The position numbers and the translations under genes were made by a program. Under the pieces are notes generated by a model. It worked only from the letters and a program-made list of their open reading frames with translations. It was not told where the DNA came from and did no database searches. From contig DASYZB010000151.1 of NCBI GenBank assembly GCA_035946615.1, positions 1 through 35,316 on the forward strand: a DNA stretch of 35,316 bases, written 5' to 3'. Below are positions 26,828 to 34,742 of this stretch, in pieces. How positions within the stretch are numbered: position 1 is the first letter of the stretch; the number at the start of each line of letters is the position of its first letter. Source of the DNA: Verrucomicrobiia bacterium. GTDB lineage: Bacteria > Verrucomicrobiota > Verrucomicrobiia > Limisphaerales > UBA8199.

Positions 26828-28975
26828 TCAGGCGGTTTCCCATTCCGGCAAGCGAATGGGCATTTGGCGCACGCGGGGGCCGCCGGCATGGACTAAGCCG
26901 TTGGCGATGGCAGGAGCGATGGCAATGATGGGTGTCTCGCCCGCCCCAGCTGACTCGACCTCGGGCCGATCCACCAGGTGAATGTCCAATTGGGGCACAT
27001 CATCGAACCGGGGCACCTGGTACTCGCCGAAGGAGGCATTCAGAATCTGCCCGTTCTCGAATCGCATCTCCTCGCGCAAAGCCGGGCCCAAGCCCATGAG
27101 AATCGCCCCCTGCACCTGCGCATGCAAATTGATTGGGTTCACAATCGCGCCGCAATCATAGACCTGCGTCACCCGCCGGACCCGGATGCGTTTTCGATCG
27201 CGCTCCAGCTCGATCTCGGCGCACGCGGCGACGTAGCCGCCTTTGTCTATTCCGCAGGCCAGGCCGACGCCCACATTAGGAGTCTTCTTCGAGACGCATT
27301 CACTCCAGCCGAACCGCTGGGCGGCGGTTTCCAATACCGTGCGCAGGCGCGGATTTTCCAAGTGTTTGAGCCGGTAGGCGAGAGGATCGGCGCCGGCGAC
27401 TGCCGCCAGTTCGTCCATGAAACTTTCTCGCGCGAAGGTGTTGGCCGAGGCAGCAAGCGAGCGGTAAGAGCCCTGGCGCAACGGCGCATCAGAACCAACA
27501 AACCGGCAGTGGCTCTTCCCGGTCCGGTAAGGCGTTTCGAGGGCGGCGCCGCCGGAATTGATATTGATGAAATGCCAGGAAGTAAGAGAACCTTCCCCGT
27601 CCAGGCCGGCCTCAATCTCAATGACCGCCGCTGGACGAAAATAGGCCCAGGTAAACTCCTCCTCGCGGGTCCAGCGCAACAACACCGGGCGGCCCGCTGC
27701 TTGCGCCAATCGGGCGGCCTCGACGGTTGCCTCGCCGCTGTGTTTGCCGCCAAAGCCGCCTCCAAAATCTGGCGCCACCACGCGCACCTTTTCTTCCGGC
27801 ACATGAAACGCACGCGCCAATTCGTTCCGGCAGCCAAATGGATTCTGCGTTCCGGTCCAGACGGTCAGTTTCCCCTCGGCCCATTCGGCGAGCGCGGAAC
27901 GGGGTTCAAGGGGTGCATGCTGGATGTAAGCCGAATGAAAGCTCTGCCGCAGCACGTGTTTAGCCTCCGCCAGCTCTTGTTGAAAGGGGTTGGCCGGTAG
28001 GGGCTCATGAACGCCCGCTTTGAGCTGAGCGAATAAATCCTTGCTCGATGAGTGAGCCGTCCGCTCCCATTTGGCTGTTTTTGCGATGGCCTCCAAGGCA
28101 TCACTCGCGCGGGCCGAGGTGGGCGCAACGACCCCAACGAATTGATCATCCCGGACCGTTTGGACGCCTTCCAAGGCCTTGGCGGGGCCTGGATCGATCG
28201 AGACCAGCTTCGCCCCGTAGGCAGGAGCCCGGAGCACCTTTCCATAGAGCATCCCGGGCCTGGCAATGTCCGACGGGTACTTGTGCGCGCCAGTGACGAT
28301 CTCGCGTCCGTTTGGCCGGGGTGTTGAATGCCCGAGGGCTTTCCAACTCTGAGCGGGGTGCAGGGCGACATCGGGTGGAATCTTCTGCTCGAAGAGGTGC
28401 GCGGCATCCTCGCTTGCCGCAAGGTCAGCGTATGAAAGCGCCCGCCCAGTCGTGGTGTGGATTGCCTTCCCATCGCTGATGCTCACTGCATCGCGTTCGA
28501 CATTCCAGCGCTTAAGCGCCAACGCCATGAGCAACTCCCGCGCGGCGGCTGCGCCCCGGCGCACTGCAGGCACAGTCGAAGGCGTGCTGCGGCTGCCGGC
28601 TGTAATGCCGTCATCAGGCGCCACGCTGGTATCGGCCATGACCAATTCAATGGCGCTGGCCGGCACACATAATTCCTCCGCTGCGGCCAGCATTAACTCA
28701 GCCCGAGCCCCTTGGCCGGCCTCGACTTTGCCGGTGAAAACCGTAATGCCGCCATCTTTGGCAATGTGCACGCGCGCCGAAATGCTAATCGAACCCGCCC
28801 CGCCAAAGCCGCGCCGCTGCGCCAGGGCCGGGGAAGCGCCGGCGGCAACCAGCAATCCGGTGCTAATCACCTGAACAAACGCGCGCCGGTTCAGGCCGAA
28901 ATCATAGTTCATCCGCTCGATGGGCTCATCGTAAGCCTGCGCGTCCAGAGGATCGGTTGGGATTTGCTCTTTCAT
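26828..28975 (-). CDS. Molybdopterin subunit of IorB/xanthine-dehydrogenase family
   Basis: A 715-residue large subunit like isoquinoline 1-oxidoreductase IorB and related aldehyde oxidases. It hydroxylates an aromatic heterocycle or oxidises an aldehyde at a molybdenum cofactor. Near residues 29-45 a Tat leader NRRAFVQVISTGLLVAAG suggests export of the folded complex with its partner. Motifs: GKVEAGQGARAELMLAAAEE, DFGGGFGGKHSGE, a GxGE with catalytic glutamate (AGAGETPIIAIAPAIANG), and CGAIVNPINLHAQVQGAILMG. ATG 28975 follows the small-subunit stop by one base (TGACATG). The frame extends upstream to 29083 over the small subunit and is rejected. Confidence 0.92.
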   Translation of the reverse strand: MKEQIPTDPLDAQAYDEPIERMNYDFGLNRRAFVQVISTGLLVAAGASPALAQRRGFGGAGSISISARVHIAKDGGITVFTGKVEAGQGARAELMLAAAEELCVPASAIELVMADTSVAPDDGITAGSRSTPSTVPAVRRGAAAARELLMALALKRWNVERDAVSISDGKAIHTTTGRALSYADLAASEDAAHLFEQKIPPDVALHPAQSWKALGHSTPRPNGREIVTGAHKYPSDIARPGMLYGKVLRAPAYGAKLVSIDPGPAKALEGVQTVRDDQFVGVVAPTSARASDALEAIAKTAKWERTAHSSSKDLFAQLKAGVHEPLPANPFQQELAEAKHVLRQSFHSAYIQHAPLEPRSALAEWAEGKLTVWTGTQNPFGCRNELARAFHVPEEKVRVVAPDFGGGFGGKHSGEATVEAARLAQAAGRPVLLRWTREEEFTWAYFRPAAVIEIEAGLDGEGSLTSWHFININSGGAALETPYRTGKSHCRFVGSDAPLRQGSYRSLAASANTFARESFMDELAAVAGADPLAYRLKHLENPRLRTVLETAAQRFGWSECVSKKTPNVGVGLACGIDKGGYVAACAEIELERDRKRIRVRRVTQVYDCGAIVNPINLHAQVQGAILMGLGPALREEMRFENGQILNASFGEYQVPRFDDVPQLDIHLVDRPEVESAGAGETPIIAIAPAIANGLVHAGGPRVRQMPIRLPEWETA

Positions 28976-28976
28976 G

Positions 28977-29447
28977 TCATTTCCCGGTGTGGTTGACCGT
29001 GCGTCGAACGGCTGCAACAATAGTGGGGTAATTGGCGCATCGGCACAGATGCGATTGCATGCGCGCGATGATTTGACTCTCACTGGGGTTGGGATTCTCC
29101 TTTAAGAGCGCCATCACACCCAGAATCATGCCCGGCGTGCAGTAGCCGCATTGAAAAGCGCCCTCGGCCAGAAATGCCTCCTGCACCGGGTGAAGGTTGC
29201 CGCCAGTAGCCAGACCTTCAATGGTCAGAATGTTTTGGCCTTCGGCTTGGGCCACGGGTGTCAGGCAGGAGGGCACGCTTTTATCATTGAGCAGGACGGT
29301 GCAGGCTCGGCACTGGCCCTCGCCGCAGCCATATTTGGCGCCGGTCAATTGCAGGTCTTCGCGCAGCACGTCCAGCAATGGCCGCTCCGGGTCCGTCGTC
29401 ACGGTTCGTGACTGGCCATTGACCCTGAAACTTATTGTCTTGTCCAT
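28977..29447 (-). CDS. 2Fe-2S subunit of molybdenum hydroxylase (IorA/CoxS type)
   Basis: A 156-residue small subunit passing electrons from the molybdenum centre. The plant-ferredoxin-type cluster uses C41, C46, C49 and C61 (YGCGEGQCRACTVLL). The second cluster uses C100, C103, C135 and C137 (FQCGYCTPGMIL and HLCRCANYPTI). No FAD subunit is encoded nearby, as in IorAB, so electrons probably go to a cytochrome or another carrier. It has no Tat leader and would be carried by its partner. Its stop nearly touches the large-subunit start. Confidence 0.95.
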   Translation of the reverse strand: MDKTISFRVNGQSRTVTTDPERPLLDVLREDLQLTGAKYGCGEGQCRACTVLLNDKSVPSCLTPVAQAEGQNILTIEGLATGGNLHPVQEAFLAEGAFQCGYCTPGMILGVMALLKENPNPSESQIIARMQSHLCRCANYPTIVAAVRRTVNHTGK

Positions 29448-29776: not shown

Positions 29777-31051
29777 ATGAAACGCAAAGCTGCCTCCAGC
29801 TCGATCTCGGTCCTTGTCCTGGGTGTCGGCGCCTTCGCCCATAGCACGGCGCAGATTCTCAAAGACGATGGCGCAAGCGTCGCCACGTACCTCACCCGAA
29901 ACTACGCGCATTATCCTCCGTCACTCGCCGGCCCGGTGTTCAACCGAGACCAACTCCCATCGCCTTGTCCCGTTCTGAAGGAGAGAGGGGTCAACCTCGT
30001 GGTGCCGATGTCCATCGATTGGGCTCAGGCCCGCTGGTGCCAGGAATTGCTTGAATCAAACGTGCCCATTTTCTCTCCGCAGCGGGAGGCGATGAAAATC
30101 GAGCGAGACAGGGATTTTGCGCGGCGGCTTTGTCAGGATTTCAGGATTGCCTACCCCAAGGCGTACGTGGCCCGGAACCGATTGGAAGCCGAACAGGTGC
30201 TGGAAAAGCACCAGCTTGGCCTGGTTATCAAGAACCCGCTCTGCTCGCCCACCAGCCCCATCCATACGATTATCTGCGAGACACCTGCCGATACTCGTTC
30301 CTGGCTCGGGCACATCGATTATGCCGAGGGCGTTTTCCTGCAGGAATACCTCGGCCGCCGCGAAGCCGGCCACATCGCCCTGGTCAGCGGCGGTGAAATC
30401 TACTCTCTGGTCACCAATCAGGAGTACAAACGAGCCCATGCCGGCGATATGGGGATTATCGCCGGCGCGCCGCTAGGGGGATTAGTCGAGAAAGACCCCA
30501 CCGACCAGTATGGGCTCGCCCGCGAGTTGCTCCAGCCGCTGCGCCCCTGGTTGCGCGAAGTGAACTATCACGGCCCCATCCAGGTGACCGCCGTCCAGTC
30601 CAAAGGCAAATGGCACGTAATCGAATATAATATCCGCATTGGTGTGACCTCCGGCGCCATGCTCTTGCGGATGCTGGCCCATCCCGCGCAAACGTTGCTC
30701 GAAACCGCCCAAAACAAAGAGTTGAACCCCCAATTCATTCCCGGGCGCGAATTCGCGTGTTCCGTCACTCTGGCCGGCTATGGCTACCCTTACGTCCAAG
30801 TCCGGGGACCCTGTCTGCCTGTTGAAGTAAGTGAACCTTTGGATTGCGATATTTGGTGGAATGAGGTGGCGCCTGATAATAACGGGGGGTTGGTCGCCAC
30901 CGGCCATCGTATCGGCGATGTCGTCGCCTATGGGGCTTCTTTGAAAGATGCCATCGGGCGCGCGTACCAAAACATCATCAAAATTCGCAGCCTCAGCAGC
31001 TATTACCGGCCGGATATTGGGCGCAGCCTTTGGCCGCCGGGCAGCACCTGA
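29777..31051 (+). CDS. PurD-like ATP-grasp ligase
   Basis: A 424-residue ATP-grasp enzyme resembling phosphoribosylamine-glycine ligase. An N-terminal Rossmann-like part (SVLVLGVGAFAHSTAQIL, residues 10-27) is followed by FSPQREAMKIERDRDFARRL (PurD: lid and start of the grasp fold). The ATP-binding core is GLVIKNPLCS with FLQEYLGRREAGHIALVSGG. The end has VIEYNIRIGVTSGAMLLRM, where the catalytic metal-binding E/N pair (EYN) is kept. The typical GPNTGGMG loop of true PurD is altered (GDMGIIAGAPLG), and the gene sits with alanine racemase rather than purine genes. It may therefore ligate a different amine and carboxylate. It is followed 26 bp later by alr. Confidence 0.8.
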   Translation: MKRKAASSSISVLVLGVGAFAHSTAQILKDDGASVATYLTRNYAHYPPSLAGPVFNRDQLPSPCPVLKERGVNLVVPMSIDWAQARWCQELLESNVPIFSPQREAMKIERDRDFARRLCQDFRIAYPKAYVARNRLEAEQVLEKHQLGLVIKNPLCSPTSPIHTIICETPADTRSWLGHIDYAEGVFLQEYLGRREAGHIALVSGGEIYSLVTNQEYKRAHAGDMGIIAGAPLGGLVEKDPTDQYGLARELLQPLRPWLREVNYHGPIQVTAVQSKGKWHVIEYNIRIGVTSGAMLLRMLAHPAQTLLETAQNKELNPQFIPGREFACSVTLAGYGYPYVQVRGPCLPVEVSEPLDCDIWWNEVAPDNNGGLVATGHRIGDVVAYGASLKDAIGRAYQNIIKIRSLSSYYRPDIGRSLWPPGST

Positions 31052-31076
31052 CTGCGCAACAATCATGAGGATTTAA

Positions 31077-32324
31077 ATGAGCGATGCAACAGACGCCATT
31101 GTTCAACAGGCCCCCGCAACCAGTATTGCCTTTGCCCCCCAGGACCCCCAAACAGCGACCACTCCGCTCCCGGCGCAATCGCTCGCACCATCCCCCGCCG
31201 CACGCCCCGCCTGGATTGAAATTGACCTCAGCCAGCTTCGGCGGAATTTCCAGGCGATTAACCGGCACAAAGCGGCTGAGGTCCGCGTGCTCGGAGTGGT
31301 AAAGGACGAGGCCTATGGCCACGGCGCCTTGCCGGTGGCAAGAATAGCAATGGAATGCGGAGTGGACTTCTTCGGGCTGAGCACGCTCGATGAAGCCATC
31401 ATGCTGCGCCAGCACGGCATCCAAGCCCGGCTCCTCCTGCTGGGCGACCGCCATGAAGCCGAGCACCCCGATTGCATCCGGCATTCTTTGACCTGCTGCC
31501 TCAGTGAGCCCCGGGCAGTTGAGCACCTTGGCCGCCTGGCTGCCAACGCAGGCCGCCGGGTGCCCGTTCACATGAAGATCAACACAGGCATGAATCGCTA
31601 CGGCGTGTGTTGGGAGCAAGCCGCGTCGCTCGCGGCGCTCATTTGCTCGATGCCTGCCCTGCGGTTGGAGGGTGTCTTGAGCCACTTTGCGCAGTCCGAT
31701 GAGACCGACAAATCGTTCGCCAAACTGCAATTGGCCCGCTTCAATCTGGTCCTCGAAGAAATGGCGCAACGCGGCATCCCGGTCGAGCTGCGGCACCTGA
31801 GCAATAGCGGCGGGTTCCTTGATCTGCCGCAAGCGCACTTTGATATGGTGCGCGTGGGCATTCTACCGCTGGGTGTGTATCCATCAAGCGTTTGCCGCCG
31901 CCTTCCGGGTATCGAACCGGCGATGACCGTCAAGGCGCGCATCGCTGCCATTCAGGAATTGCAACCCGGTGATACCGTCGGCTATGGCATGCGCTATGCC
32001 GCCACCTCGCCGCGCCGGATTGCCGTCCTGCCCCTCGGTTATGGGGACGGTTTCCCACGCGTCCGCAATCAGGGTTGCGCGCTGGTCCATGGCCAAAGAG
32101 TGCCCATTGTCGGCGGTGTGGCCATGGACGCCCTCACGGTAGATATTACCGAGGCGCCCGAGGCTCAGTTGTGGGACGAAGCCGTGTTGATGGGCCGCCA
32201 GGGACAGGAAGAGATTTCGGTTCATGAACTGGCGAAATTGAAGAACTCGGTTTCTTATGATGTTCTGGCCGGCTGGCGAGCGCGGTTGCCTCGGATTTTC
32301 TTAAACCAAACTCCCCCCGCATGA
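31077..32324 (+). CDS. alr: Alanine racemase
   Basis: A 415-residue PLP enzyme producing D-alanine for peptidoglycan. PLP lysine K76 (VVKDEAYGHG; VKADAYGHG is usual), catalytic tyrosine Y303 (VGYGMRY), R314 (RRIAVLPLGYGDG), the carbamylated lysine K167 (MKINTGMNRYG) and M350 (GVAMDAL) are all present, so it should be active. The first 44 residues (Ala/Pro/Gln/Thr-rich) precede the usual start AWIEIDLSQL. They are an unstructured extension or a wrong start, but GAGG at 31066-31069 supports ATG 31077. The stop overlaps the next start by ATGA, and the ATP-grasp gene is 26 bp upstream. Confidence 0.95.
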   Translation: MSDATDAIVQQAPATSIAFAPQDPQTATTPLPAQSLAPSPAARPAWIEIDLSQLRRNFQAINRHKAAEVRVLGVVKDEAYGHGALPVARIAMECGVDFFGLSTLDEAIMLRQHGIQARLLLLGDRHEAEHPDCIRHSLTCCLSEPRAVEHLGRLAANAGRRVPVHMKINTGMNRYGVCWEQAASLAALICSMPALRLEGVLSHFAQSDETDKSFAKLQLARFNLVLEEMAQRGIPVELRHLSNSGGFLDLPQAHFDMVRVGILPLGVYPSSVCRRLPGIEPAMTVKARIAAIQELQPGDTVGYGMRYAATSPRRIAVLPLGYGDGFPRVRNQGCALVHGQRVPIVGGVAMDALTVDITEAPEAQLWDEAVLMGRQGQEEISVHELAKLKNSVSYDVLAGWRARLPRIFLNQTPPA

Positions 32325-33124
32325 AGCTCCTGTTTTCCGAAAGCAAAGAGGATTACAACCATTACATTTTCCCCTACGCCGTCTGGGCCTTTCCTGAGGC
32401 CGGAGAAACCCCCGCCGATTGTTTTCGGCACGGCTTCCTTCCTTCCTCGCGTAACCTCGAGCGCTTTTATCTCTGCCGTCAGGTCCGGGTTAATCTGCGA
32501 AAATTCCACCCATCCTCTGAAAACCGCCGTATTCTTCGAAAAGGCCAGGGGATTTCCTTCAACCTCATACCGCGCGCCCAATTTGATTACAGCCCCCGCC
32601 GCCGCGAGTTTTACAAAGGCTATGCCGACGAAAAGTTTGGCAAAAACGTCATGTCCTATGAGCGGTTGGATTCTCTGTTTGCGGGGAAAATCACCTCGCA
32701 CCTCCTCCTGTTCACCGACACCGCCTCCGAAGCGGAGGTGGGAACGGCGACGCTCTACCTGGAACCGGATGTGCTGGGCTATTACTACTACGCCTTCTAC
32801 GATTTGGCATACCAATCAAGGAATCTCGGTTTATTCATGATGACAACAGCCGTCGCGCTCCTGGCAGAACGCGGCTTCGATTTTCTGTACCTGGGCTCGT
32901 GCTATCTGCCCAATGCCCTATACAAAACCCAATTCACTGGAGCAGAATTCTTTAATGGAGTAAAATGGTCGGACAACCTCGATGAATTGAAATACCTCAT
33001 CGCACGAGGGCAACAGCAACAAACTCAACATCTGCTGGAAGACGAGGACTACCGCCACACCTTTTACGGCGGCCAAATGGCCCCGGCCCTCTCGGCCAGC
33101 CCGTTTAGGATTCAAACGAGTTAG
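32321..33124 (+). CDS. Arginyl/leucyl-tRNA-protein transferase-like protein
   Basis: A 267-residue protein resembling the ATE/Bpt family, which moves an aminoacyl group from tRNA to a protein N-terminus. ERFYLCRQVRVNLRKFHPSS (about residues 47-66), then RRILRKGQ, recall the ATE block before the GNAT-like fold. GLFMMTTAVALLAERGFDFL and YLGSCYLPNALYKTQFTG recall its C-terminal domain (YLGYWI..MAYKARF). True ATE proteins have an N-terminal Cys-rich region that is missing here, so it may use a different donor or acceptor. The ATGA overlap with alr shows tight coupling. Confidence 0.62.
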   Translation: MKLLFSESKEDYNHYIFPYAVWAFPEAGETPADCFRHGFLPSSRNLERFYLCRQVRVNLRKFHPSSENRRILRKGQGISFNLIPRAQFDYSPRRREFYKGYADEKFGKNVMSYERLDSLFAGKITSHLLLFTDTASEAEVGTATLYLEPDVLGYYYYAFYDLAYQSRNLGLFMMTTAVALLAERGFDFLYLGSCYLPNALYKTQFTGAEFFNGVKWSDNLDELKYLIARGQQQQTQHLLEDEDYRHTFYGGQMAPALSASPFRIQTS

Positions 33125-33260: not shown

Positions 33261-34742
33261 CTACACCTGCTGGGGCACGACAAACGGCGGGCGGTACTTC
33301 CGCGTGAGCATTGCGTCGGCTTGCGCATTGTCCACAAACCGTTCCTTTTCAGCGTCAAACTTCAGAGGCAGGCCCAGTTTCAGGTTGTCCTGGGCGCAAT
33401 CAACGCCATTGGCCTCCAAATGGCCCGCCATCCGGTCGAATGCCTCGCTCAGGCTCTTATTGGATTGGAGCGCCTCGCGAATTTCCCCGGGTGCTTTTCG
33501 CGCCCCCAAGCGGTAGGAAATATTGCCGGTGTGGACCAACCCCGCCGTCAGATGGCCCTCGAGAATCTCCGCGTGCAGATGGCGCCTGTCCCGACTCCGA
33601 ATGGCCGCTATCCAGTTGCCATGATGGCTTTCAACCTCAGCCGGCGCAGTTCCCTTTCTCTTCCCATTGAACCGCGTGATCTCCTGGCCGGACTTGTCAA
33701 AAATAATTGCTTCGCTGTAACTGGGAACGACCACGTAGCCGCCTTCGCAGTCAATGACATTGCCGACGCTGACGCCCTTATACTTGTCCATCTTCCAGCC
33801 TTCGGTTTGCGACGCTTTGTTCACAGGCAGGCCGCGCACTTCGAAGAGCATCGGCGTTTGATACCCGTGGTACGCGATGAGCGTGTTGGGCGTCTCGGCG
33901 GAGTCCTTGTATCCCATGCGTCCCCCAACGGCCATCGAGAAGGGGGCGATGGTTTCCTCGCCAAGAAACCAGCGGCAGATATCGACCTGGTGCGGCCCTT
34001 GGTTGCCGAAATCTCCGTTCCCGTAAGGCCAGAACCAGTGCCAATCATAATGGACGGTGCCAAAACTGGTGTTGCGCCGCGGCGGCTCGTCCGGGGCCGG
34101 GCCGCACCAGAGGTTGTAATCGATATACTCCGGCACCTTTTGCGGTCCATCCACCAGGCCGATGCTCTTGCGCGCCTTGTAACAAAAACCTCGCGCCAAA
34201 ATTATTTTGCCCAGATGCCCGTCCCGCACGTATTGCACCCCTTCCCGGATTCCCACCGAGGACCTGCATTGCGTCCCATGCTGGACAATTCGATTGTACT
34301 TGCGCGCCGCCTCGACCATCTTGCGTCCCTCGGAAAGCTCATGGCTGGCCGGTTTTTCCACATACACATCTTTGCCGGCCTGGCAGGCCCAGATGGTTGC
34401 CAGGGCGTGCCAATGGTTGGGCACTGCAATCGAGACGGCATCAACTTCCTTGCTCTCGAGCAGCTTGCGCAGGTCGGTGTAAGTCGGGATATTGCCGCCC
34501 AAGCGTGTTGCCTCCGCATCCAGGACGTGGTGGTCCACGTCACATAACGCTACCAACCGCACCCCTTCGAGTTTCGAGAGCGAGTTGATATGACTTTTGC
34601 CCTGCCCATGAAAGCCAATCTGCGCGACGCGAATATCGCCATTGGCGCCGGCTGCCCGGCTCCAGGTTAAGGCGTCGAGGCCCAAAGCCGCTGCGCCAAA
34701 TGCGGTGCTCTTGAGGAAGGTCCTGCGTGTGAAGGTTTTCAT
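33261..34742 (-). CDS. Tat-exported Gfo/Idh/MocA-family oxidoreductase
   Basis: A 493-residue NAD(P)-dependent sugar-type dehydrogenase with Tat leader RRTFLKSTAFGAAALGLD. The Rossmann motif is DIRVAQIGFHGQGKSHI (35-51), the VEKPASH catalytic lysine motif follows (about 131-137), then GTQCRS, GNGDFGNQGPHQVDICRW and a substrate domain. Export of a family member with a leader is a common trait of Verrucomicrobia and Planctomycetes, where substrates are often polysaccharide-derived sugars. The exact sugar is unknown. It has its own promoter candidate upstream and converges with the ATP-grasp/alr operon. Confidence 0.92.
   Translation of the reverse strand: MKTFTRRTFLKSTAFGAAALGLDALTWSRAAGANGDIRVAQIGFHGQGKSHINSLSKLEGVRLVALCDVDHHVLDAEATRLGGNIPTYTDLRKLLESKEVDAVSIAVPNHWHALATIWACQAGKDVYVEKPASHELSEGRKMVEAARKYNRIVQHGTQCRSSVGIREGVQYVRDGHLGKIILARGFCYKARKSIGLVDGPQKVPEYIDYNLWCGPAPDEPPRRNTSFGTVHYDWHWFWPYGNGDFGNQGPHQVDICRWFLGEETIAPFSMAVGGRMGYKDSAETPNTLIAYHGYQTPMLFEVRGLPVNKASQTEGWKMDKYKGVSVGNVIDCEGGYVVVPSYSEAIIFDKSGQEITRFNGKRKGTAPAEVESHHGNWIAAIRSRDRRHLHAEILEGHLTAGLVHTGNISYRLGARKAPGEIREALQSNKSLSEAFDRMAGHLEANGVDCAQDNLKLGLPLKFDAEKERFVDNAQADAMLTRKYRPPFVVPQQV

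Follow-up and report, generated by a model that had tools for sequence, protein, structure and literature searches.

A known pairing of a racemase with an ATP-grasp ligase is RacD/Asl, in which a racemase gene lies next to that of a D-aspartate ligase and both serve cross-bridge synthesis; in Gram-positives, cross-bridge links are built by a racemase plus D-amino-acid ligase and by Fem transferases. A D-amino acid is likewise taken by PylC, the D-ornithine--L-lysine ligase of the pyrrolysine pathway, which joins it to L-lysine to give a free precursor. Two further families are relevant here: PurD, in which the GGREH and GPExPL motifs form the phosphoribosylamine site (an assignment of motif to substrate that is family knowledge), and the aminoacyl-tRNA-protein transferases ATE1/Bpt, whose conserved N-terminal cysteines form a metal or Fe-S site. 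ATP-grasp D-amino-acid ligases have a role in cross-bridges, and wall cross-links in general use ATP-grasp ligases for links through D-amino acids and tRNA-dependent GNAT enzymes for links through L-amino acids (PMC2922099). Lys305 of FemX and Lys329 of DhpH-C are the proposed catalytic residues of such transferases (PMC12945691).

The window analysed here, a stretch of 35,316 nucleotides from a bacterium of the class Verrucomicrobiia (order Limisphaerales), carries three adjoining genes at positions 29777-33124 of the forward strand. Gene A (29777..31051, +, 424 aa) encodes a PurD-derived ATP-grasp ligase, probably non-purine, gene B (31077..32324, +, 415 aa) an alanine racemase (Alr) of a distinct, trio-linked clade and gene C (32321..33124, +, 267 aa) a putative ATE1/FemX-like aminoacyl-tRNA transferase with a GNAT fold. 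The initial annotation had described the genes as packed, which holds for the ATGA overlap at the B/C junction, while the gap between A and B is 25 bp and not 26 bp; GAGGA precedes the ATG of gene B. Because the flanking genes (26828-29447 and 33261-34742) lie on the opposite strand, the operon consists of A, B and C only. A promoter scan gave no signal above chance, and a known RNA control element at the operon was rejected, as Rfam yielded no match in the window besides the tRNA at 47-128. Next to that tRNA gene comes an integrase-like ORF (197-1642), an arrangement with which integrated elements usually begin. The trio was also considered as a defence system and rejected as such, there being no PADLOC match.

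Gene A scored 98.2 bits against the purD model, below the equivalog threshold of 288, and matched GARS_A and GARS_C slightly above their cut-offs. Modelling of its structure, which had been proposed as a check, gave a PurD fold over the whole length of the chain (pLDDT 86, Z 36.3), followed by PylC and PurT at a Z of about 24. When the A family was aligned against nine PurD sequences, the PurD motifs GGREH, GPExPL, DGLAxGKGV and GDPE were all found to be lost and replaced by motifs that are themselves strongly conserved (PMSIDWA or PQSIDWA, NPLCxPxSPxHT, QEYK and GVTS). At the positions of GGREH and GPExPL the A homologues read GVG-A/S-F-A/T and P-M/Q-S-I-D/E-W-A, and at that of GDPE they read GVTS. 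The changed glycine loop to which the initial annotation had drawn attention is real: NPLCxPxSPxHT is nearly invariant in the family where PurD has DGLAAGKGV, and to judge from this glycine-free loop the usual ATP handling may possibly have been lost. What A shares with PurD, apart from the fold, are the Mg-binding Glu/Asn, the catalytic Arg, the ATP-site Lys and the Arg/Asp of YRxDIG in the C-domain (K152, E283, N285, R287, R378, R411 and D413 are kept, with K152, E283, N285 and R287 invariant). From this we infer that A would still ligate at the expense of ATP but act on new substrates. The idea that it might be the only PurD of its genome, which had been named beforehand as part of a refuting condition, was rejected, since a canonical PurD (400 bits) sits on another contig. 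Such coexistence is general, every one of the 21 genomes of the class with an A gene having at least one additional PurD-like match.

Gene B reached 342 bits against TIGR00492 (cut-off 168) and is thus a full alanine racemase, with the catalytic Lys76 and Tyr303 kept, as noted before, and invariant; compared with ordinary alanine racemases, it is atypical in the surroundings of its PLP lysine and of the MDQ motif. A branch with a support of 100/100 set the 44 trio-type racemases apart in a tree of 81 sequences. They are about 50-71% identical to B, as against 32-42% for other Alr sequences, among which are the second copies from Calditrichota genomes that also have the trio type. The residue after the PLP lysine is Asp (Asp77) in 44/44 trio-type racemases and Ala in 36/36 others, and trio-type enzymes further have Gly347 for Arg, Ala352 for Gln and Trp400 for Ile, which gives them a signature of KDxAYGHG plus GGxAMDA (the latter in nearly the whole clade) in place of the ordinary KAxAYGHG plus GRxxMDQ. 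Going by these residues, the substrate specificity of B may differ from that of ordinary Alr. Seven genomes of the same order that have no trio all carry an ordinary Alr with 31-36% identity and KADxYGHG, six of them with GRxTMDQ. This exchange of the Alr type together with A and C inside one order points more strongly than any other finding to a role of B in the module, as opposed to a chance position beside A and C. A second alr gene was looked for in the window's genome, which is 96% complete, and none was found; as the only Alr found, B probably provides D-Ala for general use there too, including for the wall, and it may stand in this operon simply as a housekeeping gene. Several Calditrichota genomes with the trio have a separate ordinary Alr besides, and in a closed genome from the window's class (G166) the trio is likewise accompanied by a second Alr. 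Six genomes of the class that are at least 93% complete (G026, G033, G150, G182, G115 and G200) have no recognisable Alr and would have to obtain D-Ala in some other way.

Conservation of the trio across Verrucomicrobiota had been set as a test, and A, B and C proved to be kept in this phylum and in Calditrichota/KSB1; that two phyla share all of them excludes chance ORFs. The genomes surveyed are mostly MAGs. Among 58 relatives scanned, the window's own genome included, 19 had a match to C, two of these being weak or partial, and a scan of GTDB genomes gave 175 C loci, of which 80 were kept, among them loci from Verrucomicrobiota, Calditrichota and KSB1; most of these 80 have the three genes in the order A-B-C. 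Where all three genes are present, they are collinear on one strand as A-B-C in 70 of 71 loci (drawn from 120 loci, some of which were counted twice through the use of two tools and some of which end at contig ends). Over 59 non-identical loci, the distances between pairs of sequences are correlated among A, B and C (r 0.82-0.90). A comparison of 20 neighbourhoods identified the trio as the sole widely shared gene set, with varying operon neighbours, and no exporter, regulator or resistance gene was found linked to it. The trio also occurs in two MAGs titled Akkermansia muciniphila (L132, L141), names that are apparently misassigned.

Of 188 Verrucomicrobiia genomes, 21 contained a relative of A scoring above 400 bits; 20 of the 21 belong to the same order as the window's genome. 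All 21 also have C, unlinked cases included (Fisher p 6e-27, phylogeny ignored), and C stands alone without A in just one of the 188 (G218). Within the order, 20 of 33 genomes have both A and C and 13 have neither, and inheritance of the trio inside it looks mostly vertical. Four genomes (G118, G160, G194 and G229) carry A on one contig and C on another. C was also found in 41 of 82 genomes from the phylum of a Calditrichota genome (G251), a sample that takes in KSB1. The trio is not strictly inseparable: C occurs without A in G218 and also in G234, G235, G239, G240, G242 and G243, some of the latter six perhaps being incomplete assemblies, and an A-C pair without an adjoining B occurs in a Calditrichota subgroup (L266, L272, L273, L279-L282). 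In a Calditrichota subgroup (L152, L159, L272, L273, L280 and L281), the A-C pair has a gene for a CPBP-protease-like membrane protein immediately upstream or close by, and in another locus a D-threonine-aldolase/D-serine-dehydratase-like gene (L131:6868-7974) directly follows a C that has neither A nor B beside it.

Another account of the operon, an accidental cluster of a spare PurD, a housekeeping Alr and a stray GNAT protein, could appeal to B being the only Alr found in the window's genome, but the co-occurrence of A and C, the collinearity in two phyla, the co-variation of the Alr clade and the loss of the PurD-specific motifs make it very hard to credit. Instead, the three genes probably constitute a dedicated module for non-ribosomal amide-bond (peptide) formation.

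Gene C scored 43.7 bits against the full-length arginyltransferase model (cut-off 170) and 23.8 against Pfam ATE_C (cut-off 25), with a borderline 25.0 in a six-frame search. An ATE_C match (E <= 0.01) was present in 22 of 28 homologues of C, and the window's genome has no ATE_C match besides C itself. Its predicted model (pLDDT 90.8) matched human ATE1 with Z 17.6 and an rmsd of 3.6 over 244 residues, that is, over the whole chain, followed by MprF, FemX and streptothricin-type aminoacyl-tRNA peptide synthases; a PDB profile search by sequence with the C family gave no match. The weak arginyltransferase matches and the ATE1/MprF/FemX fold agree with the earlier observation that the third gene resembles enzymes using aminoacyl-tRNA. 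No invariant Cys exists among the 28 homologues, so the metal or Fe-S site of ATE1 is absent. K202, which lies in the segment LYKTQF, is invariant and would correspond in position to Lys305 of FemX, judging by the offset between the ends of the aligned segments (214 to 317, 212 to 315). On this modelled correspondence, C probably keeps the FemX-type lysine.

With ATE1 as its closest fold over the whole chain, C could be a protein N-terminal aminoacyltransferase of the N-degron type, with A modifying the same proteins and B merely co-expressed, and the A-C pairs that occur without a neighbouring B would suit such an arrangement. We consider it improbable, given that C is devoid of the conserved Cys site and that the B clade co-varies with A and C; moreover, fold scores cannot separate protein acceptors from small-molecule acceptors for C. 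Four genomes with the trio (G018, G129, G165 and G224) have a further match, a weak one, which could represent an ordinary ATE/Bpt; C need not then replace ATE/Bpt there.

In the amide-forming module that we favour, B, a racemase of its own clade, would supply D-alanine. A would convert the carboxylate of an amino acid, D-Ala being the likeliest, into an acyl phosphate and couple it to an amine other than phosphoribosylamine. C has the fold of an aminoacyl-tRNA transferase and would transfer an amino acid from aminoacyl-tRNA onto the same molecule. The initial annotation had suggested that the three genes might together make or attach a D-alanine-containing product. Joint action of the three, one of them a transferase that uses tRNA, is well supported by co-occurrence and fold; D-alanine as a constituent of the product, or a place of the product in the envelope, we regard as no more than plausible. 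The chances are evenly balanced that A, B and C jointly represent a previously undescribed route to a D-alanine-containing peptide or envelope decoration in many Limisphaerales and Calditrichota. In line with the earlier statement, no characterised pathway of such composition was found in the literature searched. An earlier computational mention is possible; Iyer and colleagues are said to have surveyed ATP-grasp/GNAT amidoligases in 2009.

The lack of a linked exporter, regulator or resistance gene, together with the mostly vertical inheritance, makes a constitutive cell component, such as a decoration of the wall or of lipids or a peptide that stays inside the cell, likelier than a secreted antibiotic. 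We rate decoration of the envelope about as probable as a free peptide; their respective narrower versions, considered below, are specific forms of our best explanation, so that confidence in them is not mutually exclusive with confidence in it. Decoration of peptidoglycan or its precursor, in which the stem or cross-bridge would receive D-Ala together with an L-amino acid, is a possibility that we hold tentatively. An ATP-grasp ligase and a tRNA-dependent GNAT enzyme are the two tool kits of side-chain cross-linking (PMC2922099), the C fold resembles FemX, and a solitary C adjoins murB-like and murA-like genes on the opposite strand (L151:1260-3442). Wall precursors are probably made as well, since the window's genome encodes a normal Ddl (273.6 bits). 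However, mur or dcw genes are not linked to the trio in most loci, and the C fold is nearer to ATE1 than to FemX. A was considered as a replacement of Ddl as well, which the presence of that normal Ddl makes unnecessary in the window's genome.

Alternatively, the product of the trio could be a free small peptide metabolite, or a cofactor, formed in the cytoplasm, a specific proposal that we hold about as tentatively as the preceding one. PylC is the best fold of A outside PurD, the GNAT aminoacyl-tRNA enzymes PacB, DhpH and Orf11 assemble small peptides (PMC12945691), and no envelope genes are linked to the trio, but tailoring, export and resistance genes are missing too, and a distribution so wide and conserved is unusual for secondary metabolites.

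If the proposed joint function is correct, a purine-synthesis enzyme and a relative of the enzyme of protein arginylation have been recruited, with a dedicated source of a D-amino acid, into one small pathway that is widespread in environmental lineages of almost unknown biochemistry. Proteins that annotation would call PurD, Alr and arginyltransferase would thereby acquire a common role, and the sharp diagnostic residues in all three genes make their function directly testable.

PurD has the fold and catalytic residues of A, but in A the GGREH and GPExPL motifs, the glycine-rich loop and GDPE are replaced, and the canonical enzyme coexists with it. PylC, tied with PurT as the best fold after PurD (Z 24.2), is itself an amino-acid ligase that takes a D-amino acid, as A would by our proposal; its identity to A is 12%, and no pyrrolysine genes were seen adjoining A. 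C shares with ATE1/Bpt the fold over the full chain and the weak ATE_C match, yet it falls under the curated full-length cut-offs, has no conserved Cys and is found in a racemase-ligase operon. With FemX and the natural-product GNAT aminoacyl-tRNA transferases it has in common the GNAT fold, and its K202 may sit where their catalytic lysine does, whereas its Z-score to FemX is below that to ATE1, only about 160 of 267 residues are matched and the double-GNAT architecture of FemABX is absent from it. RacD/Asl, finally, is similar to the trio in that a racemase gene adjoins that of an ATP-grasp ligase; it differs in that its racemase belongs to another family and its ligase to another ATP-grasp subfamily, and the trio adds a tRNA-type transferase to the pair.
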